A stretch of DNA of 46,488 nt from Alphaproteobacteria bacterium (lineage in GTDB: Bacteria; Pseudomonadota; Alphaproteobacteria; Sphingomonadales; Sphingomonadaceae): positions 1 to 46,488 of the forward strand of contig JAFAZW010000042.1 in assembly GCA_019239415.1 (NCBI GenBank). The letters are read 5' to 3'. Below the pieces are notes generated by a model, which saw nothing but the letters and a program-made list of their open reading frames with translations, was not told the DNA's origin and ran no database searches. Positions 14,428 through 39,625 of the stretch are shown here, one piece after another. Every line of letters begins with the position of its first letter. Position 1 is the stretch's first letter. The position numbers and the translations under genes are program-made.

Positions 14428-14439
14428 CGCTGCTACGGA

Positions 14440-14940
14440 TCAGTAGGAGATGGTGACCTGGACGGTATCGGCATATTCTCCCGCGGGCGCGCCCGTCTGC
14501 CCGGCCGGGATGAGTCCGTAGACCGTCTTGATCTGCGCCGAGCCGGTGCCGGTGCCGGAGAAGGTCGACGTCGCGCCCTCGACGCCGTCGCCCCACAGCT
14601 GGGTGCGCGAGGAGTCGATGAACAGGCTGTAGCCCAGCAGGTTCGCGCCGCTCGCCATCTTGCGATGGCTAAGGTCGGCGCCGCTGCCCGCGCCGGCATC
14701 GGCGGCCGCGCTCCAGGCCGTTCCGTTCGTGCAGGTAACGCTCACGCTCCCCGTCCCCTGGACCGCCTGCCCCGAGGTGACATCGACATTGCCGAAGGCG
14801 ACGGCGGAGGTCGAGACGGTGCAGTTCGCCGTCACCGTCGCATTGACGTCGAGGGACGACGTCGCGTCCGTTGCGAAGGCCGGCGCGCCGGCGAGAGCGG
14901 CGACTAAGGCGGCCGCGGCGCCGCGTACGAAGTTCTTCAT
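14440..14940 (-). CDS. Spore coat protein U (SCPU) domain fimbrial subunit
   Basis: 166 residues: a cleavable signal peptide ending near 'GAPAFA', then an SCPU domain with 'LDVNATVTANCTVSTSAVAF', 'GNVDVTSGQAV', 'SVTCTNGTAW' and the C-terminal beta strand 'EYADTVQVTISY'. The paired cysteines (NCTV, VTC) would form the subunit disulfide. Such proteins are secreted subunits of archaic chaperone-usher fibres linked to surface attachment and biofilm. ATG 14940 has AAGGGG eight bases upstream. It is the first gene of the three-gene operon. Confidence 0.88.
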   Translation of the reverse strand: MKNFVRGAAAALVAALAGAPAFATDATSSLDVNATVTANCTVSTSAVAFGNVDVTSGQAVQGTGSVSVTCTNGTAWSAAADAGAGSGADLSHRKMASGANLLGYSLFIDSSRTQLWGDGVEGATSTFSGTGTGSAQIKTVYGLIPAGQTGAPAGEYADTVQVTISY

Positions 14941-17364: not shown

Positions 17365-19824
17365 TTACTCCGATCCCAGCACGGCCGCGGGGCGCAGCCG
17401 CGTGAGGCGCGCGATGTCGGTGGAGGCCGTCACCGCGCAGGCGAGCGTGAGGACGACGAACACCGCGCCGAAGTCGATGAGGTTCGGCGGGGCGCGAAGC
17501 GAGAAGCCGTTGATCCAGCGCAGGATGAGGACCGACGACCCGGCCGCGGCGAGCGCATAGCCGACGGCCAGCGGCCAGGAGAGCTGCCAGGCGATGAGCC
17601 CCGCAACGGTGAGACGCCTGGCGCCGAAGAGCTTGCGCAACGCCATCTCCCGTCGCCGGGAGGCGACGATGCTGCCCGAGAGCGCCGCCACGCCCATCAG
17701 CGCAATCGCGAGCACGAGCGCGCTGCCGGAGAGGAAGACCGTGCGCAGACGCACCTCCCCCTCGTAATGCTTCGCGATGTCCCCGGAGAGGGCGGAGACG
17801 ACCGGCGCCGTCTCGGGGAACTCCCTCCTCAGCCTGTCCTCGACGCCCATCCGCGCCGTGTCGATGCCGCCCGCCGCGCGAACATAGAGGATCGTCTCCT
17901 GCTCGGGCTGATGGAAATAGAGATAGGGCTTCGGCCCTTCCCGCAGCGAGGCGTGGGGGACGTTGGGTAAGACGCCGGCGATCACGAAGGCGGGACTCCA
18001 GCCGACGTCGAGGCTCGCGGTCAGGGTCTTGCCGACGGCGTCCGCAGGGCGGGCATAGCCGAGCGTTCGCGCGGCAGCCTCGTTGACCAGCGCCGGCGTG
18101 GCGGCCGCGGCAGCGCCCCCGGGCCCGGTGCTGCGCGTCAAACGGTCTCCCTCGCGCCCGTCGAGCAGCCGTCCGGCGGTGGGCGTGACGCCCATCAGCT
18201 GGAAGAAGCTCGGCCCCGCGGCCATGTAGTCCATCGAGATCTCGCGCGGGAGGCTCGCGGCCTGAACGTTCGCCTGCGCCCGGACGAGGCCGACGCCGAC
18301 TTCGTCCTGAGCCGCCGCGGCGCCGGCCGCTCCCGACACGCGGCCGAGCTCGCGCACGAGAGTCTCGAGCTGCGCGGGCGGCGCCGAAGGGGGAATGGAG
18401 CGCACGACGAGGACCGGCCTGGGGTCGAAGCCGAGCGGCGCGGCGTTCAGCAGCGCCACTTGCTTGCTGATGGCCAGCGCGCCGAGCATGAGCGCGGTCG
18501 CGAGGGCGATCTGGATGCTCATCAGCGGCGCGACGAGACGCGCGCGCACGGCCGACGCCGCCGCGCGGTTGCGGAGCGTCTCGGCCGGCCTGACCGACCG
18601 CGCCAGCGCGAACGGGAACAGCGCCACCGCCGCGGAGACCGGCAGGAGCAACCCGTAAATGAACGGCGCGTGCGCCGAGGCGGCAACGTCGCCGAAGCCG
18701 GGATCTCCTTCCGCGAAGTTCGACCACCAGGGCCGAGCCACCTCCACGGCGGCGAGCGCCAGCCCGAGCGCCAGAAGGGTCGACAGGAGAGCCTCGCCCG
18801 CGAAGAGGCGGAAGATCCGCGCCGGCGTGGCGCCGAGAAACTGCCGCAGGGCCAGTTCGCGGGTCCGCAACGAGACCGACATGGCGAGGTAGAATGCATA
18901 GTTGAACGCGGCGAGAAGCAGGAGGATGTGGGCGACCGCGAGCACGATCAGCACGCGCGAATAGTCGATCAGGGGCTTGAACCCGCCGATGGGCAGCGCG
19001 TCGGCGGGCGCGTCCCGTACGTGCAGGGCCTTGAGAGGATAAGCGCGGATAGTCACCGCGAGCCCGGCATCCTTCAGCATCGGTGCCTGCGCGGCCAGAA
19101 TCCGCGTCGCCGCCCGGGACAGTTCCTCGGCCGAGGCCTTGCCGCTCGTCCTCGCGTAGAAGTAGCCGCCGAGATCGAGCCAGTCCTTCTCCCTTGCCGC
19201 GACGTCCAGGAACAGCGGCGATTGGAGGGAAGCGAGTGCCTCGAGCTCGAGGTGCGAGTTGCGCGGGAGGTCCTGGAACACCGCGGCGACGGCCAGGCTG
19301 CGGCCACCGGGCAGCTTGACAGTCTGACCGACGGGATCCGCGCGCCCGAACAGCCGGATCGCAGTCGAGCGGCTCAGCGCAACGCGGTCGGGCCGGGTCA
19401 CCGCTTCGGCGATATTTCCGCCAACTGGCTGTAGGGGGAAGAGCGCCAGGAAACCCGGCTCCGCGAGCACCAGTTTCTGGCTGAAGTGGCGATCGCCGAC
19501 GGTCATCGCGGCGGTGGACGCAAAGACCCGCGACGTCGTGTCGAGCCCCGCCAGATGGGAGGCGAGGGCGCTCCCGGCGCGGGCACTCAGGCTCACGGTC
19601 CGGACGGGCGGCGCGCCGGGCGAAGCGATGGTCGTTTCGAACCGGAAGATCCGCGCACGCGCCGGCACCCAGCGGTCGTAGGAGAGCTCGTGGTCCGCGA
19701 TCCCGGCGAGGACCAGGAATCCCGCGAGGCCGATGGCAAGGCTGACGAGGGGCAGGGAGGTTCCCCAGGGATTGCGGACCATCCGGCGCAGGAGCATCTT
19801 CGCGCCGGCGAGGAGGTCACGCAT
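17365..19824 (-). CDS. MacB/FtsX-type ABC transporter permease with two FtsX domains
   Basis: 819 residues. An N-terminal helix ('LPLVSLAIGLAGFLVLAG') leads into a periplasmic MacB-core-like domain with 'VALSRSTAIRLFGRADPVGQ' and 'AVFQDLPRNSHLELEAL'. A first FtsX helix bundle follows ('SVSLRTRELALRQFLGATPA'), then a second periplasmic domain and a C-terminal FtsX domain ('SIVASRRREMALRKLFGARR'). This double-FtsX layout is that of exporters and efflux permeases related to MacB or to lipoprotein and peptide efflux systems. No MacB-type ATPase or periplasmic adaptor is visible nearby, so it must use one from elsewhere. It lies 84 bp downstream of a small protein gene that follows the diiron-protein gene, so it may be the last gene of the precursor-1 operon and serve in immunity or efflux. 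Confidence 0.83.
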   Translation of the reverse strand: MRDLLAGAKMLLRRMVRNPWGTSLPLVSLAIGLAGFLVLAGIADHELSYDRWVPARARIFRFETTIASPGAPPVRTVSLSARAGSALASHLAGLDTTSRVFASTAAMTVGDRHFSQKLVLAEPGFLALFPLQPVGGNIAEAVTRPDRVALSRSTAIRLFGRADPVGQTVKLPGGRSLAVAAVFQDLPRNSHLELEALASLQSPLFLDVAAREKDWLDLGGYFYARTSGKASAEELSRAATRILAAQAPMLKDAGLAVTIRAYPLKALHVRDAPADALPIGGFKPLIDYSRVLIVLAVAHILLLLAAFNYAFYLAMSVSLRTRELALRQFLGATPARIFRLFAGEALLSTLLALGLALAAVEVARPWWSNFAEGDPGFGDVAASAHAPFIYGLLLPVSAAVALFPFALARSVRPAETLRNRAAASAVRARLVAPLMSIQIALATALMLGALAISKQVALLNAAPLGFDPRPVLVVRSIPPSAPPAQLETLVRELGRVSGAAGAAAAQDEVGVGLVRAQANVQAASLPREISMDYMAAGPSFFQLMGVTPTAGRLLDGREGDRLTRSTGPGGAAAAATPALVNEAAARTLGYARPADAVGKTLTASLDVGWSPAFVIAGVLPNVPHASLREGPKPYLYFHQPEQETILYVRAAGGIDTARMGVEDRLRREFPETAPVVSALSGDIAKHYEGEVRLRTVFLSGSALVLAIALMGVAALSGSIVASRRREMALRKLFGARRLTVAGLIAWQLSWPLAVGYALAAAGSSVLILRWINGFSLRAPPNLIDFGAVFVVLTLACAVTASTDIARLTRLRPAAVLGSE

Positions 19825-19908: not shown

Positions 19909-20277
19909 TCATCGGCCGGCGCTCTGCTGCTGGCGGTGCTTGACGGCGATGGCGAAGCAGCCCGTCCAGCCGCCGGGTCCCACGTTCGAGCAGGAGCCGA
20001 TTCCCGTCTCCCCTCCCTCCATGAGGCGGTTGCGCTCCCGCGCCACGCTCTCCAGCGGTCCGTTCGGATCGAAGCCCTCGTCGCGCAGCGGCAGGCGGTA
20101 ACGGTCGGGGTCCCTGCGGCCGCAGACGACGATCGCGCTGTTATCCTCCGCCTCGCACCGGGGCACGATCCGGATGGCCCTCACGGTCGCCGGCGGCCGC
20201 TCCGTCGTCACCGGGTCGGGCGGCGGCTGCAGCAGCGCGAGCAGGGATGCGGTGAGTGGAAGGAGCGCAGAACCCAC
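19909..20277 (-). CDS. Small secreted protein of a sphingomonad type
   Basis: 122 residues from GTG 20277, with AGGG eight bases upstream. The N terminus looks like a signal peptide ('ALLPLTASLLALLQ'). The body contains 'AIVVCGRRDPDRYRLP' and 'ESVARERNRLMEGGETGIGS', then 'CSNVGPGGWTGCFAIAV', a pattern I recall from uncharacterised sphingomonad proteins. Three or four cysteines could pair in the periplasm. It begins 10 bp after the diiron-protein gene ends, on the same strand, so it is probably cotranscribed. Function unknown, and a part in the peptide pathway is not shown. Confidence 0.68.
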   Translation of the reverse strand: MGSALLPLTASLLALLQPPPDPVTTERPPATVRAIRIVPRCEAEDNSAIVVCGRRDPDRYRLPLRDEGFDPNGPLESVARERNRLMEGGETGIGSCSNVGPGGWTGCFAIAVKHRQQQSAGR

Positions 20278-20287: not shown

Positions 20288-21001
20288 TTACGAAGCGGCG
20301 GCGGCCCGCTCCGCCTCCTCGCGTATGAACGCGGCGTAGCCCGCCAATCCGCTCGCCAGCCTGTCGCGCATCAAGGGGTCGCCGGAAAGCAGCTCGTTGA
20401 GGATCGTGGCGGTACTCAAGACGTGCCTCTTCTCGTCGCCGATCACTCGCGCGAGTCCAGCCTGAATCTTGTGCTGCGCGAGCACGTCCGGATGATGGAT
20501 GTTTTCGGAAAGCGTGGAAAGATAGAAAACATTGCGCACTTCGGCAAAATGCGTGTCGCACAGGAAGCTCGGCAGGTCGCCGTCATATTGGTCGACGAAC
20601 GCATCGGGCGCCGGCGAGGGGGCGGGCGAGATCCCGCACGTCCCGTCCGCGACGTCCGCCATGGCGCTGAAGATGCGGCAGTGCCGTCGCTCGTCCGCGG
20701 CGTGGCGGCTCATGGTGCGGCGATGCCGCTCATCCGCGATCGTCGAGGCGACGAAGCCGATCACCTCGGCCCCGACGCCTTCCGTCTCGGCATGATGGCG
20801 AAAGATACGGGCAAGGGCCTGCGGGTTCGACTGCGGCCGGATGGTGGCCGCAAAGGCGCCGACCGAGTCGGCGAACGTCTCCCAGTCGAGGCCGCGGACG
20901 ATCTGGGCAAAGCCGGGCGCGACGCTCGCGCCCGCCTCCTCGAACAGGTTCAGCACGAACGCCGCCGAAGGCCGGCCGGGATGCGTCCGGACGGCGCTCA
21001 T
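20288..21001 (-). CDS. Ferritin-like diiron protein in the RiPP operon
   Basis: 237 residues from ATG 21001, overlapping the sulfotransferase stop (ATGA). The sequence fits a four-helix diiron fold: a helix with Glu72/74/79, 'HAADERRHCRIF' (Glu104-x-x-His107), 'HFAEVRNVFYLSTLSENI' (Glu154), and 'IGDEKRHVLST' (Glu190-x-x-His193). The pair of ExxH motifs plus two single glutamates is the set of metal ligands used by ferritin-like oxygenases and oxidases. A role in oxidising or hydroxylating the peptide of the same operon is plausible but inferred; a storage or structural role cannot be excluded. The open frame extends upstream inside the sulfotransferase gene, and that part is not coding. Confidence 0.76.
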   Translation of the reverse strand: MSAVRTHPGRPSAAFVLNLFEEAGASVAPGFAQIVRGLDWETFADSVGAFAATIRPQSNPQALARIFRHHAETEGVGAEVIGFVASTIADERHRRTMSRHAADERRHCRIFSAMADVADGTCGISPAPSPAPDAFVDQYDGDLPSFLCDTHFAEVRNVFYLSTLSENIHHPDVLAQHKIQAGLARVIGDEKRHVLSTATILNELLSGDPLMRDRLASGLAGYAAFIREEAERAAAAS

Positions 21002-21816
21002 GCGTCGGGCTCCCGCGCCAGATCGGCCAGGTAGGCCTCCCTCCAGCGGCGCGACTCCGCACCGGATTGCCGTTCGACCGGAGGAATGGGGAGGCGCGGC
21101 TGGGGAGCGAGTGCGACCCCGAGGTGGCCGGCGACCGCGGCAAGTGCTTCCTGCGGCTGCGCGACGACGTCTTCGTAGACCAGGTGCAGCGGCTCGACGC
21201 CGAGCGCGTCGAACAGGCGGCTCCAGCGCTCGTTCTGGGCGACGATCCAGCCCTTGGCGCGCTCCACCGCGTCGCGCGAATAGGGGACCTGCTCGTTGGT
21301 CCCGATCGATTGCTCCTTGCACCAGACACCGGTCAGGTGCGCCCGCGCGTAGGAGACCGACTGGGCGGTCTGGTCGCGCCGATCGAGGAAGACGATGTGC
21401 GTCGGCATCAGCGCTTCGAGCAGCGCCTCGTTCGACTCGCCGAGCGCGCGCAGGTGCATGAGGAAGCATTTGAACCCGAACACGCCGTTGGGGGACGTGC
21501 GCGTCGCCAGCGCCTCCTCCCACCGCCGCCGCTGTGACGCCGCACGGTCCGCCTCCGGCTCCCCTTCCGCGTGGGGAGCGAAGTCGAGATATTCGAGCGG
21601 GGCGCCGAGGCAGCCGGTCTGCCACAGCAGATGGCTCAAATAGGTGCTGCCGCTGCGCGGCGTCGTCGCGATCATGTAGCGCACCGCGGGCGGGGCGGAT
21701 CGCCGCGGAAAATCGAACTTGGCTTCGTAGCCGCTGTCGAACTCGGGCGCCGAGATGGTTCGCGGCGGCAAGGGCGACGCGGCCGGGGCGATCGGGGCGG
21801 CATGATCCTCAGGCAT
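20998..21816 (-). CDS. Stf0-type sulfotransferase
   Basis: 272 residues. The PAPS-binding 5'-phosphosulfate loop is 'TTPRSGSTYLSHLLWQTGCL', followed by 'GAPLEYLDF', the arrangement of Stf0 (trehalose 2-sulfotransferase) proteins. The 3'-phosphate region is 'VFLDRRDQTAQSVSYARAH'. It transfers sulfate from PAPS to a hydroxyl (or amine) of an acceptor. The gene overlaps the exporter gene by 8 bp and the diiron gene by 4 bp, so it is tightly tied to the precursor-1 operon. The acceptor could be the modified peptide (Ser, Thr or a newly made hydroxyl) or a cell-surface sugar; the operon favours the peptide. Confidence 0.85.
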   Translation of the reverse strand: MPEDHAAPIAPAASPLPPRTISAPEFDSGYEAKFDFPRRSAPPAVRYMIATTPRSGSTYLSHLLWQTGCLGAPLEYLDFAPHAEGEPEADRAASQRRRWEEALATRTSPNGVFGFKCFLMHLRALGESNEALLEALMPTHIVFLDRRDQTAQSVSYARAHLTGVWCKEQSIGTNEQVPYSRDAVERAKGWIVAQNERWSRLFDALGVEPLHLVYEDVVAQPQEALAAVAGHLGVALAPQPRLPIPPVERQSGAESRRWREAYLADLAREPDA

Positions 21817-23917
21817 TCGCCCTCACTTCCTGGACCGGCTGGACCGGGCCGACCCGGATCGTCCGGTCCGCGGCGGCGACGGCTTCCGGACGGTGGCTGA
21901 CGAGGATGACGGTGATGCCGAGGCGGCGGAGCTCGCGGTGGATGGCCCGCTCGTTGCCGACGTCGAGCTGGCTGGTCGCTTCATCGAGCAGGAGCAGCTG
22001 CGGCCGGTGATAGAGTGCACGGGCGATGAGAAGCCGTTGCCGCTGCCCGCCCGAGAGCGCCGTGCCCCGTTCGCCGACCATGGTCAGAAGCTGCATCGGC
22101 ATGGCGCGGACCTCGGCCTCGATGCAGGCGCTCGCGCAGGCCTGCCACGCGCGCTCCACGTCGGGTTCCGCCTCGAACAGGGTGATGTTGCCGAGGATGT
22201 CGCCCTCGAGCAGTTCGTCGTCCTGGAAGACGCAGGCGCGCGCGCGATCGAGCGACGCCGGATCGAGCAGATCGGCGTCGACGCCGGACCAGAGGATGGA
22301 GCCGCTCGTCCGGGGGAGGAGCCCGGCGACGATCTTCAACAACGTGGTCTTGCCGCTTCCGGAGGGGCCGGCGACCGCCACGAACTCGCCCTGCGCGACC
22401 TCGAGCGCGACGTCGCGCAGCAGCGGGGCACCGCCGCCATAGTCGAAGCTGAGACCGGAGATCCGCAGGCTTTCGAACGGCGGCGCGGCGGCGCGCCTTG
22501 CCGCTTCGGCGGGCTCCTCTTCGACGATATCGGCAAGATGCTCCAGCTGCACCTTCACGGCGGCGATCTCGGCGACCTTGCCGGACAGGAGCGAGGCGCG
22601 GTCCATCAGCATGCGGACGTAGAAGATGAGTGCGAGGATGCTGGCGCCGCGCCCGTGCACGGCGCCCGGCGCCAGGACGAGGTAGAGGGTGAGGCCGATC
22701 CACGCGCAGTCGCTGACGAAGGCGGAGGCGGCGTCGAACAGGCCGCGGTGCCAGGCGTAATTGCCCTGGAAGGTGACGGAATTGTCCACCCGCAGGCCGT
22801 AGCTGGCCAGCCGCTGGGACGTCTTGCCGAACAGCTTGAGCGCGCGGATCGCGCGCACCGATTCCATGAGGTGGAGTCGCTCCAGCGACCGCGCATGGAC
22901 CACCTCGTCCATCAACTCCCGCGACGTGACGCCGCTGACGAAGCGGATGGCGCCGACCAGCGTCGCGGCGGCCGCGGTGAGCAGCATCACCAGCGGGCTC
23001 AGCGTCCCGATCGCGACGAGCAGGACGATGAGCATGATGACGTCGATCGAGGCGTTGAGATAATCCTCGCTGAGCAGCGTGCGCAGCCGGTCGGTCCCTT
23101 CGAACCGCGAGACGATGTAGGTCGAGTATCGTTGCTCGAAGAAGGACGGAGGCTTGTCGAGAAGGCGTCGGAAGGCGGTCGCCATGATGCCGCGCTGGGT
23201 CGCGCCGCTGAGGTGGACGACGAGGGCGCTGCGAACGATCCTCGTCCCCATCAGCACGGCGAGGACCAGCAGCCCCATCATCGCCAGCTGCACCGGAGCG
23301 TTCGCCGCGAGAGAGGATCGATCGAGCATCCGCGCGACCAGCCACGGCGTCAGCACGAGGAGCAGCTCGAGGCACAGCGACACCGCCAGGCCGAGCGACG
23401 CGGGCAAGAGCAAGGCGCGCTTGCGGGGAAGCAGGTCGCCGAACCGCAGCGGCTTGACCGCCTCGAGGAAGCCGGTGGGCGGCGTGTTCCGGACGAATTC
23501 GATCGCGACGCCGGTCACCAGCGGCGCCGCCTGCTCGAGCGAGACCCGCCGCCGCCCGTAGGAGGGGTCGAGGATGGTGAGGTTGCGGCCGTCGAAGGCG
23601 GACAGCACGACATAATGGCTGAAGCCCCAGTGCAGGACGGCCGGGAGCTCCAGTTCGGCGAGCGCGGCAAGGTTGATCGCGACCGGCACGGGTTCCAGCC
23701 CGAGCTGCTTCGCCACTTCGACCAGGCCGTTGAGCGTCATGCCGCGCGCCGAGGGCGGACACATCTTGCGGACGCCGGCCAGCGAGACGTCGGACCCCAT
23801 CGCGCGCGACACCATCACCAGGCAGGCGAGGCCGCACTCGAAATAGGTCGCCTGCCGGACCAGGCGGAGGCGGCGCCCGCTAGATGTGCGCATAGACATA
23901 AGCGAACACCGCCGCAT
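21809..23917 (-). CDS. Peptidase-containing ABC exporter with active C39 domain
   Basis: 702 residues. The N-terminal C39 peptidase is complete: Gln22, Cys28 in 'YFECGLACL', His101 in 'HWGFSHYVVL' and Asp117 in 'LTILDPSYG'. A six-helix membrane domain follows, then an ATPase with 'GPSGSGKTT', 'LSGGQRQR' and 'LLLLDEATSQLD'. Such exporters remove the leader after a GG/GA/GS motif and export the core. The partner precursor at 25398-25523 has a fitting GA site. The start is uncertain: ATG 23917 overlaps the small membrane gene by 38 bp, and 23899 and 23893 are also possible. No HlyD adaptor is encoded in this operon. Confidence 0.9.
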   Translation of the reverse strand: MRRCSLMSMRTSSGRRLRLVRQATYFECGLACLVMVSRAMGSDVSLAGVRKMCPPSARGMTLNGLVEVAKQLGLEPVPVAINLAALAELELPAVLHWGFSHYVVLSAFDGRNLTILDPSYGRRRVSLEQAAPLVTGVAIEFVRNTPPTGFLEAVKPLRFGDLLPRKRALLLPASLGLAVSLCLELLLVLTPWLVARMLDRSSLAANAPVQLAMMGLLVLAVLMGTRIVRSALVVHLSGATQRGIMATAFRRLLDKPPSFFEQRYSTYIVSRFEGTDRLRTLLSEDYLNASIDVIMLIVLLVAIGTLSPLVMLLTAAAATLVGAIRFVSGVTSRELMDEVVHARSLERLHLMESVRAIRALKLFGKTSQRLASYGLRVDNSVTFQGNYAWHRGLFDAASAFVSDCAWIGLTLYLVLAPGAVHGRGASILALIFYVRMLMDRASLLSGKVAEIAAVKVQLEHLADIVEEEPAEAARRAAAPPFESLRISGLSFDYGGGAPLLRDVALEVAQGEFVAVAGPSGSGKTTLLKIVAGLLPRTSGSILWSGVDADLLDPASLDRARACVFQDDELLEGDILGNITLFEAEPDVERAWQACASACIEAEVRAMPMQLLTMVGERGTALSGGQRQRLLIARALYHRPQLLLLDEATSQLDVGNERAIHRELRRLGITVILVSHRPEAVAAADRTIRVGPVQPVQEVRANA

Positions 23918-24080
23918 CGACCACGACGAGGAGCAGAACCAGCCATGCCGGCGGCAGCTTCGCCCGCGGGCGCGCCAGCAGAAGATCCTCGGGCCGCAGC
24001 GGCCGCGCCTGTGGCAGGAACAAGGCGCGCCACCGGTCGTGCGACGCCCCGGTCGGTCCTGGCACGGGCGTTTCGCTCAT
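23880..24080 (-). CDS. 66-residue single-pass membrane protein of the RiPP operon
   Basis: ATG 24080 overlaps the radical SAM stop codon (ATGA), and the end overlaps the exporter start. The first ~47 residues are soluble and proline-rich ('ALFLPQARPLRPEDLLLARP'), followed by one C-terminal membrane helix ('PAWLVLLLVVVDAAVFAYVY'). I do not recognise a family. Its place between the modifying enzyme and the exporter suggests a small adaptor that tethers the maturase or precursor to the exporter, an accessory exporter subunit, or an immunity protein. These are guesses from context. The double overlap and the clean membrane segment support that it is a real gene. Confidence 0.7.
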   Translation of the reverse strand: MSETPVPGPTGASHDRWRALFLPQARPLRPEDLLLARPRAKLPPAWLVLLLVVVDAAVFAYVYAHI

Positions 24081-25228
24081 GCGCAGGCCGCCATCGCCGC
24101 CGGCTCGGCTCCGCCATTTTCCACGACATAGGCGCGCAGCCGCGCGTAGACTCGCTTGAGGGCCTCGCAATAGACGGTCTCACGCCACGCGTGCCCCGCC
24201 GGATCGTACCGGTGCGCCCCTTCTCCGCTCCGGCAATGCGCGGACCAGGCGCACGCCGTGCACACGCCGGGCTTCGAGGCGCTGAGGCCCGGCAGCGGGC
24301 CGTCGCCATAGCGCGTCCTGAAGTCGCCGAGCTCCGAGTTCCAGACGGTGAGCGCCGCCGCATCGGGACGGAACACGTCCGGCATCGTCATCCGGTAGGA
24401 ATCGTCGGGAGCAAGGCTTCCGTCGCTGGCGACCCCGAGCACGAGCGTCTCGCCGAGCGCGCGCCAGGCCGCAAGCCCGGGGGCGCGCGCGAAGGCCAGC
24501 ATGCCGGTGAAAGGCCGCACCGCGATCGACGGATCGTCGTCGGACAGCCATTCTTCCAGGGCCGCGCCGAGGAAGTCGCCCATGCGCGCAACGGTTTCGG
24601 GAGCGGTGTTGCCCCAGTCCGCGTCCGGAAAGTTGAACGCGACGGTGCGAAAGCCGAGCTCGTCGACGATGTGGCGGTAGACCCGGCGCGCGTCCCGCGT
24701 CGGATCGACGACGCAGATCGCGCCGAGCGATTTCAGTCGCCCGGCGTCGCGAGCCTCCCGCAGCCGCCGCACGCCGGCGGCGGTCCGCGCGTGCGTGCCG
24801 CGACCGCGATGATCGACGCGAAACGCGTCATGATAATCGGCGGGGCCGTCGACGGAGACGCCGACGTCGATGCCGAAGCGGGCGAAGATCTCGATCCACT
24901 CGTCGTCGACGAGCATCGCGTTGGTCTGGACGGAGAGGCCGGTCCGCGCCGCACAGTCCCCGATGTGGAGGCGTTCGCACAGCTCCGTGAACCGGCGCTT
25001 GCCGAGCATGAGCGGCTCGCCCCCGTGAAGGACGAGACGCACGGCGTCGAGTTGCGTCTCCCCTGCCGCGCGGCGGATGTAATCGGCCACCCCGCCCGCC
25101 GTGCGCAGGCTCATCAGCTTGGGATGGGCCTGGAACGACTTGTCCGGACCGTTGAAGAAATAACAGTAGCTGCAGTTGATGTTGCAGACTTCCGTGACTT
25201 TCAGCACGAGCTCGAGTGCTAGACCCAC
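24077..25228 (-). CDS. Radical SAM/SPASM peptide maturase
   Basis: 383 residues from GTG 25228, with GGAG seven bases upstream. The radical SAM cluster motif is Cys15-x3-Cys19-x2-Cys22 ('EVCNINCSYCYFF'), followed by 'LVLHGGEPLM' (SAM-binding GGEP) and 'GIDVGVSVDGPADYHDAFR', typical of SPASM peptide maturases. The C-terminal 'GVCTACAWSAHCRSGEGAHR' holds auxiliary-cluster cysteines, with a further Cys near the end ('YCEALKR'). The layout matches enzymes of the FxsB/XyeB/darobactin-type group that crosslink aromatic side chains in RiPP precursors. It follows the 41-residue precursor gene after a stem-loop and is overlapped by the small membrane gene. The exact bond it makes is not known. Confidence 0.89.
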   Translation of the reverse strand: MGLALELVLKVTEVCNINCSYCYFFNGPDKSFQAHPKLMSLRTAGGVADYIRRAAGETQLDAVRLVLHGGEPLMLGKRRFTELCERLHIGDCAARTGLSVQTNAMLVDDEWIEIFARFGIDVGVSVDGPADYHDAFRVDHRGRGTHARTAAGVRRLREARDAGRLKSLGAICVVDPTRDARRVYRHIVDELGFRTVAFNFPDADWGNTAPETVARMGDFLGAALEEWLSDDDPSIAVRPFTGMLAFARAPGLAAWRALGETLVLGVASDGSLAPDDSYRMTMPDVFRPDAAALTVWNSELGDFRTRYGDGPLPGLSASKPGVCTACAWSAHCRSGEGAHRYDPAGHAWRETVYCEALKRVYARLRAYVVENGGAEPAAMAACA

Positions 25229-25357
25229 TGCGCTACTCCTCGGTCAGGCGGGGGCGACGTCCGCGCGGCGGCCAGCGAGTTGATACGCGGTTTCCCGGTG
25301 GGGCTGGGGCGTCGATCGTCGCCCGCGCCGCTTCGGCACGAACCGCAAGCACTGGAA

Positions 25358-25390
25358 GGGGCAGCGCCGGACTTGGCCCGCCGCTGCCCC
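25358..25390 (-). terminator. Stem-loop after precursor 1 (attenuator or stabiliser)
   Basis: A perfect 9-bp stem (GGGGCAGCG at 25358-25366 with CGCTGCCCC at 25382-25390) around a 15-base loop, beginning 8 bases after the precursor stop codon and before the radical SAM gene. On the minus strand it is followed by TTCC, not by a T-run, so it is not a classical terminator. Attenuation or 3'-end protection of the precursor message is the likely role. Confidence 0.55.
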
Positions 25391-25397
25391 GCCGAGA

Positions 25398-25523
25398 TCA
25401 GGCGTGCCAGGTCCAAATGGCTTTCGCGAAGCTCGCGCCTGTCGCCGGGACGTCAAGGTCACCGCTCACAAGCTTCTTCTTCAGCGGGATCTGCTTCTGA
25501 GCTTGACTGGTCTCATTCTTCAT
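25398..25523 (-). CDS. RiPP precursor peptide 1 (41 residues, C-terminal core with aromatic residues)
   Basis: ATG 25523 lies seven bases after a clear GGAGG, and the frame closes with TGA at 25398. The first ~20 residues are polar and Lys-rich ('MKNETSQAQKQIPLKKK'), followed by 'LVSGDLDVPATGA' and the end 'SFAKAIWTWHA'. The GA preceding the last 11 residues matches the double-glycine type sites cut by C39 peptidases, and the operon contains an intact C39 exporter. The core has two aromatic-x-residue triplets, F-A-K and W-T-W, the type of motif that radical SAM enzymes turn into three-residue cyclophanes or, in darobactin, into ether and carbon-carbon bridges. Role assigned from size, ribosome site, order and motif; no homologue search was possible. 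Confidence 0.8.
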   Translation of the reverse strand: MKNETSQAQKQIPLKKKLVSGDLDVPATGASFAKAIWTWHA

Positions 25524-26170: not shown

Positions 26171-27223
26171 ATGATTCGGTCGGCCCCTCTAGCGTTTCGT
26201 ATCAACCGATTCGCTTTTGCCGCCGGAGACGCCGTGTCGCCGTGGACGTCGACTTCCAAACCCGACGGGTGGATAGATCATCTTGCATCCTGTCTTGGAG
26301 CGTGGCGGCCGGCGTTGCTTGACGCTCCCGCGGCCGCGGCGTTCAAGGCGGCCGTCGCCGACTGCGCACGGGCCCGCGAGGCGTGGCTCTACCATCCGTT
26401 CGTCGCGGCCATCACCGCCCGTGCGGAGCCGCCCCTTGCGGGCGAGCTGAACCTTTTCGCCTGGGCCGCCTTCCAGGAGAGGATGCCCGACCTCGAGCTG
26501 GCGGTCGCGCCCGGTGCGCAGCTCCTGGACCTTGGCGGAGACTATCGGGCGCTGGCCGGCCGGCGCTCCTGCGCGCAGCTGGCAGCGACGCTGTCCTCCA
26601 TGCGGCGGCGCGACGTCGCGCTCGTGGTGCCGCCGGGCACTGCGCCCCCGTCCGCGGGCGCGCGCATGACGTTCGAACGGCATCGGGAGCAGATCAGGAC
26701 GAGGATGCCGCAGCTGTGGGCCTGGATTGCCGCTGCGACCACCTTCGCCGCGGCGCTGCCGCCCGCCGCGACCGGCTCCTTTTCGAGCCGCTCCTCGCCG
26801 GACGAGCCGGGCGTGGTCTATCTTACGCTCGGCGGAGACATATTGCAGACGCTGGAGGCGCTGGTCCACGAGACCGCGCACCTTCATTTGTTTCGCGAAG
26901 AGCGCGTCGCCTCGCTGACGAACTCGGCGGAGGCGCGGTTCCGCTCACCCCTGCGCGCCGATCCGCGTCCGCTGCGCGGCGTGCTGCTGGCGATGCATGC
27001 CTGCGCCCATATCGCCGCGGCGTTCCGCGAGGCGGAAGCGTGCGGTCTCGATCATCCGCTGCGCTGCCGCGCCCAGCGGATGGAGATGCTCGACCTGTTC
27101 CGCGAGGCTCGTGAGGTGGTGGAGAGCGCGCGGCGGCACCTCACCGATGCCGGCGCGGCGTTCGTCGAGCGGACCGCCGCGGTCGCCGAGCACGCCGCGA
27201 CGCCGGCACTGTCGGCGGCATGA
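26171..27223 (+). CDS. HExxH-motif putative peptide modification protein
   Basis: 350 residues if started at ATG 26171; GTG 26234, with GGAGA about six bases before it, is a good alternative and would give 329. The protein is mostly helical and carries 'LEALVHETAHLHLFREERVA', the HExxH zinc-type motif of a family found beside radical SAM/SPASM RiPP loci (mod_HExxH, as in FxsB systems). Also seen are 'LDLGGDYRALAG' and 'GVVYLTLGGDILQTLEALVH'. Family function is unproven; some members are fused to the radical SAM enzyme. Its stop overlaps the next gene as ATGA. It is divergent from precursor 1 and is most likely a second-step enzyme of that pathway. Confidence 0.78.
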   Translation: MIRSAPLAFRINRFAFAAGDAVSPWTSTSKPDGWIDHLASCLGAWRPALLDAPAAAAFKAAVADCARAREAWLYHPFVAAITARAEPPLAGELNLFAWAAFQERMPDLELAVAPGAQLLDLGGDYRALAGRRSCAQLAATLSSMRRRDVALVVPPGTAPPSAGARMTFERHREQIRTRMPQLWAWIAAATTFAAALPPAATGSFSSRSSPDEPGVVYLTLGGDILQTLEALVHETAHLHLFREERVASLTNSAEARFRSPLRADPRPLRGVLLAMHACAHIAAAFREAEACGLDHPLRCRAQRMEMLDLFREAREVVESARRHLTDAGAAFVERTAAVAEHAATPALSAA

Positions 27224-28473
27224 CCGCCGGCGACTTCTCGCTGCCGCCCGTCGCGGGAGAGCCGGCAATGCCGGAGGTCGCGAGACCCGCGAGCGGCGCC
27301 GACCAGCCGCACAGGCGGCCCTCCGCTTTGGGGGAAACGTTCCGCGATCCGGTCCCGCACAGCGCCCCATATCGCTTCGTCATGGCGCGCGCCGACGACC
27401 TCGACCGACTCCGCCGCCTGCGCCGGCGGCTGCAGCGGTGCCGGGAGTGGGTCCATTGCCGGCAGCCTTTCTTCGAGCATTGGGAAGCCGATCTCTCGAC
27501 GTGCGCGATCGACGAGGCCGGCCCACTCCTGCCGGAGGCCTGCCTCGCATCGGTGGCGAAGGCGGCGGAGCGTTGGTTCGGACAGCCGCTCTCGTCGCGC
27601 GTGAAGTTGCTCGCGCACCGCATGGAGGCGGGTCATCACAGCGAGCTTCACAACGACAATCCCCGCTTCGGCCACGAGACCCACCGCCTGAATCTCTACC
27701 TCAACGACGACTGGCACGACGGCGTGGGCGGCCGGCTTCGCGTCGCCGCGTCGAACGAGCCGCATACGGACGACATCGCCATACGGCCGACGATCGGCAC
27801 CGTCATGGTCTTCGAAGCGTCGCCCCACTCCTTTCATGGCGTCGACCGCGTGGCCGGCGGCCAACGCTATTCGATCCTGTTCTACCTGTGGCATGCGGGA
27901 AACACGCCGGAGGTGCGGACCGCGGTGGCGGACAGTCTCGCCCGCGCCGCCCCCGCCCGGGAGCGGGTGTGCAGCCGCGCCGCCGGCCTGATCGAGCTGC
28001 TGCGCAGCGCCGGGGCGGGCGAGGTCGGGTTCGGGGCGTCCACGCTTCTCGAACAGGCCGTCCGCTCCGCCGCGCTGCTGGCGAGCTGGGGAGCGCCCGA
28101 ACCGGCCTGGCTCGCAGCCTTGCTCCAGCTGGTCGACGACGAGGTGCTGGCCGATGCCGGATCGGCGCTTCCCGGCGCCGACATCGACGCCGGCACCCTC
28201 GCGGCCGCCGCGGCGATCGCCCTGAGCCTCGGGCAGGCGTCCCCCGCGGGCGGGGATCCGCGCCTCGCCGCGGCCGCCGCGGGGCTGCGCTTCTCGAACA
28301 TCGTCGCCGGGCTGCCGGCGCTCGATTTCTCGCACGCCGCCTGGCTGGCCCACAGAGGCGCGTTCGTGCGCGACCGCGCGGCGCTGCCGTCGCCGGCACG
28401 GTCCCTCGGCGCAGCGCTGTTCGATCACCCGCTGCCGGCCACCGAATTGCCGGGCGAGGCGGGTGTCGGGTGA
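27220..28473 (+). CDS. 2-oxoglutarate/Fe(II) oxygenase with C-terminal helical HD-like domain
   Basis: 417 residues. The oxygenase core, about residues 120-225, has the facial triad His144-x-Asp146 in 'HSELHNDNPRF', the distal His206 in 'SPHSFHGV', and Arg216 in 'GGQRYSILFYLW' for 2-oxoglutarate, with 'HRLNLYLNDDWHDGVGGRLR' typical of prolyl-hydroxylase-like folds. The remaining ~170 residues are helical; 'TLLEQAVRSAALLASWGAPE' resembles HD-superfamily proteins of the DUF6817 kind, but the metal histidines are missing. ATG 27220 overlaps the HExxH stop codon. Likely hydroxylates the peptide; the C-terminal part may bind leader or partner. The combination is unusual in my experience. Confidence 0.8.
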   Translation: MTAGDFSLPPVAGEPAMPEVARPASGADQPHRRPSALGETFRDPVPHSAPYRFVMARADDLDRLRRLRRRLQRCREWVHCRQPFFEHWEADLSTCAIDEAGPLLPEACLASVAKAAERWFGQPLSSRVKLLAHRMEAGHHSELHNDNPRFGHETHRLNLYLNDDWHDGVGGRLRVAASNEPHTDDIAIRPTIGTVMVFEASPHSFHGVDRVAGGQRYSILFYLWHAGNTPEVRTAVADSLARAAPARERVCSRAAGLIELLRSAGAGEVGFGASTLLEQAVRSAALLASWGAPEPAWLAALLQLVDDEVLADAGSALPGADIDAGTLAAAAAIALSLGQASPAGGDPRLAAAAAGLRFSNIVAGLPALDFSHAAWLAHRGAFVRDRAALPSPARSLGAALFDHPLPATELPGEAGVG

Positions 28474-28742
28474 CGGCCCCGGAACGTGGGGACGGCGGGG
28501 GCCGCTCGGCGATCGTGGGGAAACTGGCTGGCGGCGCCTCGACCATCGCGCCAAATAAAATCCGGCGTAACGTGCGGGGGCAGCTCACGCCACGTATCCG
28601 CCCGACCCGTTCCTTTAGAGCCAAAATGGTCGCGTCCCGGCTGCATGGTCCCGGCAGGCGAACGACTGGGCGCACGCGGACTTTTCCGCTCCGGTCGTTC
28701 AAGCTACGAACGGCGGATCGGTCGATTCGGAGCAGCACCATA

Positions 28743-29408
28743 GTGGTCGAGACGGAGGCCTACAGGGCCAATGGCTATGTCTGCCTGCCAGGTTTGTTTC
28801 CCGTTCCGGTGATGCATGCTTTCTATCGCCGCATGCAGGCCGATCTGCAGGCCTCGGGCGATTCCCTCGCCACGTTCGCGGCGCGCGGGCCGCTTCTCCG
28901 CCACGAAGCGATCGAGATCTACGCATATCAGTACCCGCCCCTGCTCGGCTTTCTCTGGGGGCTGACGCCGCGCATCGCCGCGGCGGCGGGAGTCGACTTG
29001 CTGCCGACCTATGCCTATTTCCGCCTCTACCAGCACGGCGACGTCTGCCGGGTCCATTCCGACCGGCTGGCCTGCGAGCACAGCCTGTCGCTGACGCTCG
29101 CTTATGCCGACGATCTTCCCTGGGAATTCTCGGTCGCGACGGAGCAGACCGACGCGCTCGATCCGGCCATCGCGGAGGATTTCGGCGCGCTGTCATTCGG
29201 GTCCGTCGCGATGCGGGCGGGCGACGGCGTCCTCTATCAGGGCATCCGCCACCGGCACGGACGGCTTCGCGCCAATCCCAATGCGTGGTCGGCCCATCTG
29301 TTTCTGCACTGGGTGGACCGCGACGGCCCCTACAAGGAGCAGGCGTTCGACCAGCCGACGGTGGCGCATAATTCCCGCGGAGGCGCGGCCTGGCTGCGCG
29401 CGATCTAG
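28743..29408 (+). CDS. 2-oxoglutarate/Fe(II)-type hydroxylase
   Basis: 221 residues from GTG 28743, which has GGAG about ten bases upstream; an in-frame ATG at 28626 would add a low-complexity Arg-rich leader that reads as non-coding. The N terminus 'YRANGYVCLPGLFPVPVMHA' is typical of phytanoyl-like hydroxylases. The metal triad is His105-x-Asp107 ('CRVHSDRLA') with a distal His at 170 or 172 ('GIRHRHGRLR') and a nearby arginine. It follows the HD-like oxygenase after a 269-bp gap and precedes precursor 2 by 205 bp. Which precursor it acts on is not clear. Confidence 0.77.
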   Translation: MVETEAYRANGYVCLPGLFPVPVMHAFYRRMQADLQASGDSLATFAARGPLLRHEAIEIYAYQYPPLLGFLWGLTPRIAAAAGVDLLPTYAYFRLYQHGDVCRVHSDRLACEHSLSLTLAYADDLPWEFSVATEQTDALDPAIAEDFGALSFGSVAMRAGDGVLYQGIRHRHGRLRANPNAWSAHLFLHWVDRDGPYKEQAFDQPTVAHNSRGGAAWLRAI

Positions 29409-29534
29409 GATGAACGGCAGGCGCGACGTGGGCGGGCGACCGTTGCGAGGGGTGGAACCAACTGCATGGCCGCTATCGACGCCGAGATCTGGCTTCAGGA
29501 GTCAGTAGAGCAGAGTCTTGATAGAGAAAGTCAC

Positions 29535-29563
29535 TTGCTTGGCATAATCTCGCGCCGTATGAG
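29535..29563 (+). promoter_or_regulatory. Possible promoter of precursor 2
   Basis: TTGCTT (29535-29540), 17 bases, TATGAG (29558-29563), about 50 bases before the precursor-2 start. A competing pair is TTGATA (29518-29523) and CATAAT (29543-29548), with a long 19-base spacer. The region is AT-rich, as expected for a strong promoter. Neither pair is decisive. Confidence 0.33.
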
Positions 29564-29613
29564 AGCACAAGTCAGCAATTATTCTGATTCATGCTGACGT
29601 AAGGAGAACGAAA

Positions 29614-29763
29614 ATGACAAAGCTTAGTCCTTTTGCTTCCGAGCCTCAGAAGGTGGAAATGTCGCAGCTGAATCAGTTTATCAGCCAGGGACGGATGCCC
29701 ACTCTTCCCGGACCTTCGAAGTCCGAGGCATCAAACGACTTCGCGAACAAGAACCACAACTAA
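29614..29763 (+). CDS. RiPP precursor peptide 2 (49 residues)
   Basis: ATG 29614 follows a strong AAGGAG at seven bases; TAA closes it at 29763. The N-terminal part ('MTKLSPFASEPQKVEMSQLN', then 'QFISQGRM') is leader-like. The C-terminal part ('PTLPGPSKSE', then 'ASNDFANKNHN') is rich in Pro, Ser, Lys, Asn and His. It has no cysteines and no GG/GA site, consistent with the dead C39 domain of the nearby exporter. A strong terminator follows at once, then an asparagine-synthetase-like ligase and a hydroxylase, an order typical of RiPP loci in which the precursor is expressed far above the enzymes. Carboxylates (Glu, Asp) and a Lys are available for amide bonds; prolines could be hydroxylated. 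No known class matched by eye. Confidence 0.82.
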   Translation: MTKLSPFASEPQKVEMSQLNQFISQGRMPTLPGPSKSEASNDFANKNHN

Positions 29764-29798
29764 GTAGCTGCAACGCCAGATAAGCTACAATGAAACTC

Positions 29799-29827
29799 GA
29801 GCCTGTCGTATGACAGGCTCTTTTTTT
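29799..29827 (+). terminator. Rho-independent terminator after precursor 2
   Basis: A perfect 9-bp stem, GAGCCTGTC (29799-29807) with GACAGGCTC (29812-29820), tetraloop GTAT, and a run of seven T (29821-29827). It begins 35 bases after the precursor stop and ends 10 bases before the start of the ligase gene, so downstream enzyme genes depend on read-through. Confidence 0.9.
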
Positions 29828-29837
29828 GAGGTGTCCA

Positions 29838-31304
29838 GTGATTGATGCTGAGTTGCATCTCGGTGATGATCCGGCCGGATCGACTGTCGAAGGCAAGCGG
29901 CTTGCATTTGGCAAGAGCATCATTGCGGCGTTTCCCTCGCCTCTGATCGGCATGGCCGTCGATGCCGGGCCCTCCCGGAGCGAGGTGTGGATCGGCGAAG
30001 CGCATGCGGCGCCCGCCCGTTCCGCCGGTCCGCCGCCGGCGGTCGCCGAGCGGATCCGGGCGCACCGCCAGGGTGTGGAGGGAGATGCCGTCCTCGTCCT
30101 GATGTCGGGGGATTCCGCGAACCGCACGATCACGGTGGCGAGAAGCAGCGCCGGCGCCTGTCCGATCTACGTGGCGACGAACGATGACCGCCTGGTGGTC
30201 TCCTGGCGGTACGAGGCGGCAGTCGCCATCCTGCCGCGCGTGAAGCCCGACCTCGCGGCCTGCCGCCTCTACCTCAAGAAGGCGGTGACCCATACGCGCA
30301 ACCAGGTCATCGAGGGTACGTTCATCCTGTGGCCCGGCGAAGCCGTCGAATTCTCGCGAGCGGGTCTGGCATTCCAGGAGATCGAGCCGCTGCCCGTGGT
30401 GCGACCCGCCATGCTGAGGGCCGATGCCTGCGTCACCGGAGCGTTCCTGGAGACGGTCGCCGAGGGCTGCCGGCCGATGGTGACGGCCGCCGTACGTCCC
30501 CTCCTCGAGATAAGCGGCGGCTACGACTCGTCCTGCGTCGCCCTGGCGGTCGCCGGCCTGCGAGCGGACATGCTCTCCTATGGGGTCATTCAGGACGGCG
30601 CCGCCGGCGAGCAGCAACGCGCCCGGCGGGCCCAGCTCCTGTCGCTGATCAAGACGCGGGACGTCGAATATCCCGCCTACGGCGATTCGTCCTTCGACTT
30701 CCCGCTCGAGGAGGAGCAGCACACCACCTGCATGGACGACATATATCGTTCGTATACGGCACGGGCCTTCGCCAACTTTCCGTGCGAACTTCCCGATCTC
30801 GTGATTACGGGGATCGGCGGCGACGAGCTGACGCGGGAAGAAACCTTTCGGAGGGAGCCAGGAGAGCTACGGGGAAATTATTCCAGCTCGGCGATCTCCG
30901 GCGCGATGTGCCGCTATGACGTATTCCTCAGGCGCGGAATCTGGCTGTCCAATCCCCTGATCGCCCAGGACGTCATCGACTTCTGCCGGGCCCTGCCGCC
31001 GGAGATCCGCAAGGACCGGCTCCTGAACGTTCTGACCCTGGCCAGAGGGGGCCTGAGCGACGGATTCATCTTTCCCTACTATGCCGAGCATTTCGGCAAC
31101 GTTCTCCTTCGCTACGCGGTCGTCACCGACTTCAACGCGATGTTCAGGTCCTCGATCGTCGGCGATTATGGAATCGTCGATGTGGCCAGCATGCTCCAGT
31201 CCGCCCGCGACGCGTTGCGCGACGGCTTCACCTTTCGACAGGCGTCCGACTTCCTGTTCCTGCGGAAGCTCGAGATGGTGCTCCGCCGCTATCTGCCAAA
31301 CTGA
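29838..31304 (+). CDS. Asparagine-synthetase-like amide ligase (lasso-cyclase-like)
   Basis: 488 residues. I start at GTG 29838, six bases after GAGG; the TTG at 29826 lies in the terminator T-run. The C-terminal synthetase domain has the ATP pyrophosphatase loop 'LEISGGYDSSCVALAVAGL' (SGGxDSS) and 'VITGIGGDELTREE'. The N-terminal domain keeps the Ntn scaffold ('GDAVLVLMSGDSANRTITVA') but lacks the catalytic N-terminal cysteine, so it cannot use glutamine. Such proteins activate a carboxylate with ATP and let an internal or external amine attack, as in lasso peptide cyclases. It lies just after precursor 2. There is no lasso B protein nearby, so a different amide bond is possible. Confidence 0.84.
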   Translation: MIDAELHLGDDPAGSTVEGKRLAFGKSIIAAFPSPLIGMAVDAGPSRSEVWIGEAHAAPARSAGPPPAVAERIRAHRQGVEGDAVLVLMSGDSANRTITVARSSAGACPIYVATNDDRLVVSWRYEAAVAILPRVKPDLAACRLYLKKAVTHTRNQVIEGTFILWPGEAVEFSRAGLAFQEIEPLPVVRPAMLRADACVTGAFLETVAEGCRPMVTAAVRPLLEISGGYDSSCVALAVAGLRADMLSYGVIQDGAAGEQQRARRAQLLSLIKTRDVEYPAYGDSSFDFPLEEEQHTTCMDDIYRSYTARAFANFPCELPDLVITGIGGDELTREETFRREPGELRGNYSSSAISGAMCRYDVFLRRGIWLSNPLIAQDVIDFCRALPPEIRKDRLLNVLTLARGGLSDGFIFPYYAEHFGNVLLRYAVVTDFNAMFRSSIVGDYGIVDVASMLQSARDALRDGFTFRQASDFLFLRKLEMVLRRYLPN

Positions 31305-31314
31305 ATCGCCGTCG

Positions 31315-32370
31315 ATGAGCCCCGTTCCGCCCAGCGCTCCCGCCTCGCCCCGCCCGGCCGGCGCGGGGGCCGCATCCGATCGGCTCTATGACCGGATCAC
31401 GGACGCCAACCTGAACGCGCTCTGCACCTTCCTGCGCGCCAGCGGCTATGACGTGGCGCGGTCCGTGGTGCTGGATCTGCAGGAGATGGTCCTCGACGGC
31501 GGTTCGATGTCGCTGGGCACGGTCGCGTCCGTCCTGGAGGCGATGGGGGTGCCGTTCCACGCTTGCCGCTACGCGAAGACGCCGGGCATTCCCGCCGGGG
31601 AGGTGGCGCTCGTCCCGTTGCGCGCCCGGAGGGGAACGGCCTCGCGTAAGACCGAATATGCCTTCGCCATTGCCGTCTCCGCCGGGCCGGGCGCAATCCC
31701 TTACTGCACGAACGGCCATGGCGAAGCGCTCGTCCTCTCCGCCGACCAGTGGCGGCGGCAATGGAGCGGCGTCGCGATCCACGTTTCGCGACCGCCGCCG
31801 GACGGCTGGACCACCGACCCATCGCGTATCGAGGCCGAGCGGCGATCCGCGGCGGCGTATCGGCGCGAGATCCGGTACGTCGAGAACCTGATCGACCCCG
31901 AGCTCTGCGACGACATCGTCGCCGTTTGCGAGCGTCGCAGGACGTTCCGGAGAAGCGGCGTTTCCACCGCGAACATCGCCTCTTCGGTGCGGACCAGCCA
32001 CAGCAGCGACTTGCGGGGCGAGATTGCGCGCCGGCTGGAGGCGCGGCTCAGGATGCACGCGCTGTTCGAGTCGCGCGTCTTCGAGACGTTCCAGGTCGTG
32101 CGCTACCGGCCCGGCGAGCAGTTCCTGGCCCATATCGACGTCTCGCCCGACGTCCCCCGCCCGCTGACCGCCATCCTCTATCTCAACGAGGATTTCGACG
32201 GCGGCGCGACGAGCTTTCCCAATCTCGGCCTCGAATGGCATCCGCGCAAAGGCTGCGCCCTCATCTTCCCCAATCTCGACGCCCTGGGTCAGCCGATCGA
32301 GTGGTCGTTGCACAAAGCGGAACGGGTGAATGCCGGCCGCAAGTATGCCTGCAACATCTGGACGCGATGA
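31315..32370 (+). CDS. C39-like domain fused to a prolyl-4-hydroxylase-type oxygenase
   Basis: 351 residues, 10 bp after the ligase gene, starting at ATG 31315. Residues about 22-158 resemble a C39 peptidase fold without active site: 'GSMSLGTVASVLEAMGVPFH' fits the helix after the active-site segment, and 'EALVLSADQWRRQWSGVAIH' fits the strand-helix end of C39 domains, but no catalytic Cys or His is in place. Residues about 185-351 are a prolyl 4-hydroxylase domain with His273-x-Asp275 ('FLAHIDVSPD'), 'LTAILYLNEDFDGGATSFPN', distal His333 and Lys343 ('GRKYACNIWTR'). The C39-like part probably holds the leader peptide while the oxygenase hydroxylates the core. The hydroxylase is certain; the C39-like call is from pattern. 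Confidence 0.8.
   Translation: MSPVPPSAPASPRPAGAGAASDRLYDRITDANLNALCTFLRASGYDVARSVVLDLQEMVLDGGSMSLGTVASVLEAMGVPFHACRYAKTPGIPAGEVALVPLRARRGTASRKTEYAFAIAVSAGPGAIPYCTNGHGEALVLSADQWRRQWSGVAIHVSRPPPDGWTTDPSRIEAERRSAAAYRREIRYVENLIDPELCDDIVAVCERRRTFRRSGVSTANIASSVRTSHSSDLRGEIARRLEARLRMHALFESRVFETFQVVRYRPGEQFLAHIDVSPDVPRPLTAILYLNEDFDGGATSFPNLGLEWHPRKGCALIFPNLDALGQPIEWSLHKAERVNAGRKYACNIWTR

Positions 32371-36857: not shown

Positions 36858-39625
<2,768 letters not shown>

Follow-up and report, generated by a model that had tools for sequence, protein, structure and literature searches.

A probable triceptide-type gene cluster in a sphingomonad carries an Stf0 sulfotransferase gene and an orphan iron-protein-like gene

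Do six tightly packed genes of one sphingomonad contig, among them a short precursor-like gene, a SPASM radical SAM gene and a sulfotransferase gene, form a single RiPP pathway, and how much of that pathway is already familiar? In the window analyzed here (the whole stretch of 46,488 nucleotides), the cluster is real and coherent; its familiar part is the ring-forming half, and what is new in this setting is the sulfotransferase together with an orphan gene for an iron-protein-like product. As read from its genes, the cluster probably makes a small ring-linked peptide of the triceptide family and hydroxylates it, and perhaps also adds sulfate to it. We somewhat favor the view that the locus, described from one genome, encodes a triceptide pathway to which oxygenation steps have been added and a sulfotransferase recruited; sulfation and a DExRH-dependent step, both drawn from gene position in this one genome, are possible.

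RESULTS AND DISCUSSION

Gene content and layout

All six genes named in the first-pass annotation were confirmed on the minus strand between positions 20288 and 25523, with overlaps of 4, 38, 8 and 4 bp between successive genes after precursor 1 (Table 1), the 38-bp value depending on the choice of the exporter start ATG. Third-position G+C peaked in the named frame, precursor 1 included (0.54/0.44/0.76). The unit is larger than these six genes, and outside them we found divergent HExxH and 2OG genes (26171 to 29408), a second precursor-like open reading frame (ORF) and an ADOP/FtsX permease gene. No family match was obtained in Pfam or NCBIfam for the 66-amino-acid (aa) protein, and a megablast search of the 15-kb region against plasmids found nothing. 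Elsewhere in the window, usher, chaperone and spore-coat-U type genes (11454 to 14940) make up a small chaperone-usher pilus set.

TABLE 1 Features of the locus, in order of position in the window
Feature	Coordinates	Strand	Basis and remarks
ADOP/FtsX-MacB permease, probable member	17365..19824	-	FtsX 8.6e-17, MacB_PCD 2.9e-18
122-aa ORF, membership doubtful	19909..20277	-	Family searches without match
237-aa DExRH protein, possible AurF/ferritin-like dimetal enzyme	20288..21001	-	Motifs; AurF E 0.11
Stf0-family sulfotransferase	20998..21816	-	PF09037 1.7e-25; PDB 1tex
C39 peptidase-ABC exporter	21809..23917	-	Pfam Peptidase_C39 4.3e-24, ABC_membrane, ABC_tran
66-aa protein, hydrophobic C-terminal stretch	23880..24080	-	Overlaps both neighbors
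Predicted SPASM radical SAM maturase, triceptide (3-CyFE) group	24077..25228	-	GTG start; XyeB/YhhB/FxsB profiles, ChlB structure, cysteine motifs
Candidate precursor 1, 41 aa, MKNETSQAQKQIPLKKKLVSGDLDVPATGASFAKAIWTWHA	25398..25523	-	GGAGG, GC3 bias, position before radical SAM gene as in relatives
Predicted αKG-HExxH peptide β-hydroxylase	26171..27223	+	Start uncertain, frame open from 25787; TIGR04267, ChlH 8s5f
YhhC-like 2OG-Fe(II) oxygenase with C-terminal extension	27220..28473	+	NF041706, 2OG-FeII_Oxy_3; 4-bp overlap with HExxH gene
Possible third Fe/2OG-type oxygenase, membership doubtful	28743..29408	+	HxD by eye
Candidate precursor 2, 49 aa, ends SNDFANKNHN (F-A-N motif)	29614..29763	+	GGAG before ATG, GC3 bias
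Intrinsic-terminator-like hairpin	29799..29827	+	9-bp stem, T-run; 3′ of precursor 2

A candidate precursor beside a divergent, probably triceptide-type maturase

Precursor 1 appears credible from its ribosome-binding site, its codon bias and its F-A-K motif, while profile searches gave it no family match. The GGAGG reported earlier for this gene was indeed present, ending seven bases 5′ of the ATG. The candidate core, (A)SFAKAIWTWHA, contains F-A-K and W-T-W; the F-A-K, read by eye in the C terminus, is an aromatic-x-acceptor motif encoded beside the enzyme, and the gene order agrees. Substrates of C39 peptidases carry GG, GA or GS, with hydrophobic residues at -4, -7 and -12. The leader of precursor 1 has GA at residues 29 and 30 and no proper double-glycine, and its L18 and L23 match, by eye, a cut after G29, which leaves a GA cut off by one residue relative to the hydrophobic positions. 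Thus, the core would comprise 11 or 12 residues; the 11-residue core previously proposed depends on the GA cut.

Judging from its sequence, the radical SAM protein is a divergent relative of three-residue-cyclophane (triceptide) maturases; its cysteine motifs are CxxxCxxC (residue 15) and C-x2-C-x5-C (residue 323). Its top profile matches, all over the full length, were cyclophane-forming maturases (the group XyeB/YhhB/FxsB/GrrM/ChlB), including XyeB (TIGR04496; 8e-71, 238.8 bits, under the curated cutoff of 450) as well as YhhB (7.8e-60) and FxsB (2e-56), both likewise under their curated cutoffs, and the best solved match was ChlB (9gm3; E 6.8e-30) over nearly the full length. The scores fall far under all curated cutoffs for named triceptide maturases, which counts against the triceptide assignment. 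In a midpoint-rooted tree of 18 sequences, the protein was placed in a group of 11 with XyeB of Xenorhabdus, apart from a group of seven that includes the YhhB-type enzymes (95/99 support); its branch is long, and no sequence pairs with it firmly within the group. Pairwise identities were 38% and 36% to the enzymes of two relative loci (L031 and L015, respectively) and 33% to XyeB. According to the accessible part of PMC11002830, triceptide enzymes bond the aromatic ring at position i to the β-carbon at i+2. XyeA of Xenorhabdus bovienii has F-A-R at the place of F-A-K in precursor 1. Tryptophan as the position-3 residue, as in W-T-W, is absent from the partners given in that part of the paper, which counts against a second ring.

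In the exporter, the C39 residues Q22 and C28 are present, and the His and Asp of the triad could be read by eye; it is 29 to 33% identical to the exporters of L015, L024 (XyeAB) and L031. The identities first given to the radical SAM enzyme, the exporter and the sulfotransferase are supported, as is their place with a precursor and a possible diiron protein in one string of overlapping genes. A homologue of the FtsX permease (20% identity over 817 aa) lies directly 3′ of the C39 exporter gene in L015.

Divergent oxygenases and a second precursor-like gene

The HExxH protein scored 72.5 bits against TIGR04267, over the cutoff of 40, with HETAH at residue 233, and it matched solved ChlH (8s5f) at an E value of 6.6e-4; no relative of it was found in the plasmid search at 1e-5. 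The YhhC-like protein reached 90.4 bits against NF041706, under the cutoff of 150, and 1.2e-11 against Pfam 2OG-FeII_Oxy_3, while the third oxygenase candidate had neither a family match nor a solved-structure match at an E value of ≤1. In ChlBH, the HExxH hydroxylase modifies Asp and His only on a preinstalled cyclophane, as given in the available portion of PMC12636437. The HExxH and 2OG genes are opposite in strand to the six-gene string and lead toward precursor 2, which counts against a one-pathway reading. Precursor 2 itself may be a second substrate or part of a neighboring cluster. Four terminator-like hairpins were found in the region (3.3 expected from shuffles), and the one following precursor 2 has the longest stem.

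Beginning with this 49-aa precursor-like ORF, a second RiPP-like cluster extends from 29614 to 39629. Its products include an HlyD protein, a 2OG oxygenase, an S9 peptidase and two proteins with weak resemblances, one asparagine-synthase-like and similar to the macrolactam cyclases of lasso peptides (E 1e-4), the other a methyltransferase similar to that of daptides. In its ABC exporter, the C39 domain apparently has no catalytic Cys (by eye).

The sulfotransferase and its possible acceptors

The sulfotransferase scored 90.4 bits against PF09037 (cutoff, 22), with RSGST forming the PAPS loop, and aligned to PDB 1tex (6.6e-13) through this loop and through the GAPLEY Glu, the presumed catalytic base of Stf0. 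Against the named equivalog Trehalose 2-sulfotransferase (NF047724), it reached 84.4 bits, far under the cutoff of 400. The host genome has three Stf0 genes, and the locus copy is 45% identical to one lying between TonB-receptor-like and xylanase-like genes. Homologues at an E value of ≤1e-10 were found in three of seven relative genomes, with identities of 49% (G005), 50% (G001) and 32% (G004); those of G005 and G001 lie outside RiPP loci, before an EF-P-like gene and a TonB-receptor-like gene, respectively (all neighbors read from translations). Since homologues of 45 to 50% identity occur outside RiPP loci in its own genome and in two others of the genus, the Stf0 of the locus seems to have been drawn from sulfotransferases already resident in the genome.

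Tyr is absent from both precursor 1 and precursor 2, which rules out Tyr sulfation; the acceptor would thus be Thr38, Ser31 or a hydroxyl installed by an oxygenase. Among the literature matches listed, from a coverage that leaves most subscription papers outside, none joined a sulfotransferase with a SPASM radical SAM cyclophane RiPP.

An orphan DExRH protein

The 237-aa protein carries DERRH at residue 103, DEKRH at 189 and HxxxExxH at 100. AurF uses such motif ligands (E, ExxH, E and ExxH) in a four-helix fold. In shuffled sequences, two DExRH motifs occurred in 2 of 200,000 cases, a statistic chosen after the motif had been seen, and two ExxH motifs occurred in 14%. The motifs are what speaks for the ferritin-like, diiron identity claimed earlier; no Pfam family scored over its cutoff, and the top match was AurF (E 0.11 over 22 residues). 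Single-sequence structure prediction gave no confident fold (mean pLDDT, 39.8), and the three matches to solved structures (E 0.1 to 0.9) were all unrelated by name. At E ≤ 1e-6 in 396 genomes of the order, and at E ≤ 1e-3 in 369 of the phylum, the protein turned up only in its own genome; these sets are overlapping samples of larger groups. None was found in the plasmid search at an E value of ≤1. Two of the 10 genomes examined for weak matches gave four (E 0.02 to 0.14), which were rejected as noise, two being without diiron motifs and two not being found again.

Cyanobacterial clusters that pair a CylC-type halogenase with a sulfotransferase were considered as a parallel and set aside: the settings in the accessible part of PMC8406957 are P450/PKS-type or other, with no radical SAM peptides among them. 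They show only that chemistry of this kind recruits dimetal proteins of the AurF type.

Distribution among relatives

Radical SAM relatives are sparse, occurring in 4 of 397 genomes of the family and 7 of 396 of the order (E ≤ 1e-40) and in 4 of 357 of the class (E ≤ 1e-50), with the genome under study counted in each. The 17 relative loci compared are a sample of relatives, into which 4 of 24 plasmid records were taken (H1, H2, H5 and H7). L006 and L007, where the radical SAM matched only partly (E 6e-10 and 1e-11), were excluded, and the short cuts of other loci (L003 and L008 to L014 of L015 to L022, and L028 to L030 of L031 to L033) were not counted twice. Absence from L004 (10.8 kb) or L005 (4.5 kb) says little, given how short both are.

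Seven of the 17 loci have an HExxH gene close to the radical SAM gene, four (all among those seven) a YhhC gene and one an FtsX permease gene. L015 reads, in one direction, precursor (with GG and W-N-R), radical SAM, HExxH, C39 exporter and FtsX. The expectation that a short gene precedes homologous radical SAM genes proved plausible in 13 loci (L005, L015, L016, L017, L019, L020, L021, L024, L025, L026, L027, L031 and L033; assigned by eye with a loose filter and no shuffled control), and no such gene was seen in L004, L018, L022 and L032; the first outcome that the first-pass annotation had named as refuting, a lack of short genes upstream of homologues, thus did not arise. In the YhhB-type loci L016, L019 and L021, two precursors flank the radical SAM gene, one on each side.

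Several of these loci have features of their own. A precursor-like ORF by the radical SAM relative of L031 (10325 to 10522, reverse strand) has a GG leader, five SFDL repeats and the ending WSR, while those upstream of the relatives in L020, L025, L033 and L005 contain repeated Y-x-Q, N-F-V-S or H-T-D units. Three HExxH genes lie near one radical SAM gene in L022 (6760 to 11306), and two do so in L018 (10062 to 14131).

The second such outcome, sulfotransferase and diiron genes not co-occurring with the radical SAM gene in relatives, did arise: Stf0 was missing from all 17 loci and, genome-wide, from each of the 4 relative genomes checked for it, and the DExRH protein, for which, as for each of the small proteins, a single sequence served as query, was in 0 of 17 loci. 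The gene set is thus one genome's assembly and no demonstrated class. Nor does the earlier statement that no described class fits apply to its core, in which radical SAM, HExxH and 2OG genes follow the triceptide/ChlBH/YhhABC theme.

A proposed pathway and its alternatives

In the pathway that we somewhat favor, the SPASM radical SAM enzyme would bind the leader of precursor 1 and close a ring in F-A-K by linking the Phe32 aromatic ring with the Lys34 β-carbon, with perhaps a second ring in W37-T-W39. The αKG-HExxH enzyme and the YhhC-like 2OG oxygenase would install β-hydroxyls after the cyclophane, with His40 as one candidate site. Stf0 would then use PAPS to sulfate a hydroxyl, either that of Thr38 or Ser31 or one put in by the oxygenases, the DExRH protein would contribute a further oxidative step or act as an accessory, and the C39 exporter, helped by the FtsX permease, would cut after TG or TGA and export the peptide. 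A more specific version, in which ring closure makes the substrate for one or more Fe(II)/αKG β-hydroxylases, their new hydroxyl is the Stf0 acceptor (the first case of Stf0 acting on a ribosomal peptide), the dimetal protein adds a step and one enzyme set serves both the F-A-K and the F-A-N precursors, strikes us as quite unlikely.

Alternatively, the peptide may be an ordinary hydroxylated triceptide, with Stf0 and the DExRH protein either riding along as passengers or acting on some other molecule, such as a sugar, a lipid or a small metabolite. Their absence from all 17 relative loci, the closest Stf0 relatives adjoining TonB-receptor, xylanase-like or translation-factor genes rather than RiPP genes, and the trehalose equivalog, distant as it is, speak for this; however, the Stf0 gene overlaps the exporter gene by 8 bp and the DExRH gene by 4 bp inside the string, and the FtsX permease gene, which follows the exporter in L015, here lies beyond both, so that we regard passenger genes as rather unlikely. 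Another possibility is that the divergent HExxH, YhhC-like and third oxygenases act on precursor 2 instead of precursor 1 and belong with the cluster of the former (asparagine-synthase-like, 2OG, degenerate C39-ABC and HlyD genes). They share strand and order with precursor 2 (26171 to 29763), that strand has no radical SAM gene, and between them and precursor 1 lie 620 bp of more AT-rich DNA; yet in relatives the HExxH and YhhC families accompany the radical SAM gene. Given also the two precursors flanking the radical SAM gene in L016, L019 and L021 and the F-A-N in precursor 2, one enzyme set may serve both, and a separate allegiance of the oxygenases seems unlikely.

Finally, W-T-W might be crosslinked into a fused bicycle by a Trp-Trp ether and a C-C ring, since it has the W-x-W spacing of darobactin. 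The radical SAM protein, however, scored only 74.8 bits against DarE (cutoff, 650) and 109.7 against DynA (cutoff, 450), both far below its XyeB score; on these scores we reject a darobactin- or dynobactin-type enzyme and regard such a bicycle as highly improbable. A Trp-Trp ether and a Lys-Trp bond are named in the accessible part of PMC9055067.

Comparison with known systems and implications

Like XyeAB/xenorceptide-type triceptides (XncB and XyeB), the locus combines a short precursor, a SPASM radical SAM enzyme and a C39 exporter, with F-A-K in place of F-A-R; unlike them, it has neither a proper GG nor an HlyD gene in the operon, its maturase is only 33% identical and under the XyeB cutoff, and it adds HExxH, 2OG, Stf0 and DExRH proteins. 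It shares both enzyme families with ChlBH, a fused radical SAM-αKG-HExxH system that makes a cyclophane and then β-hydroxylates, and its two enzymes find their best solved matches in ChlB and ChlH, but here the two are separate, divergent genes accompanied by an extra 2OG oxygenase, a sulfotransferase and the DExRH protein. Sphingomonad-type YhhABC clusters (L016, L017, L019 and L021) likewise join radical SAM, YhhC 2OG and HExxH genes, some with more than one precursor, whereas the YhhC-like protein of this locus falls short of its family cutoff (90.4/150 bits), no Y-N-R or H-N-R motif occurs, and a C39 exporter and Stf0 are added. For sulfation of a peptide, the excerpt of PMC6637879 describes RaxX-RaxSTAB, where a sulfotransferase gene accompanies a double-glycine-processing exporter, yet RaxX is sulfated on Tyr, which the precursors here do not contain. 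Methanobactin made with MbnS is a RiPP with Thr sulfonation in the accessible part of PMC3621798, and Thr38 is a candidate acceptor here; MbnS, however, belongs to PF00685 rather than PF09037, and the locus has no MbnB or MbnC.

If the favored pathway is true, a sulfated, hydroxylated cyclophane peptide would bring a new modification to the triceptides and give the Stf0 family a substrate that is a peptide, and it would show how a resident sulfotransferase comes to be recruited into a peptide pathway. The Tyr-free substrate would let mass separate Ser/Thr from β-hydroxyl sulfation. The DExRH protein, with no homologue detected in the genomes searched, could represent new peptide chemistry.
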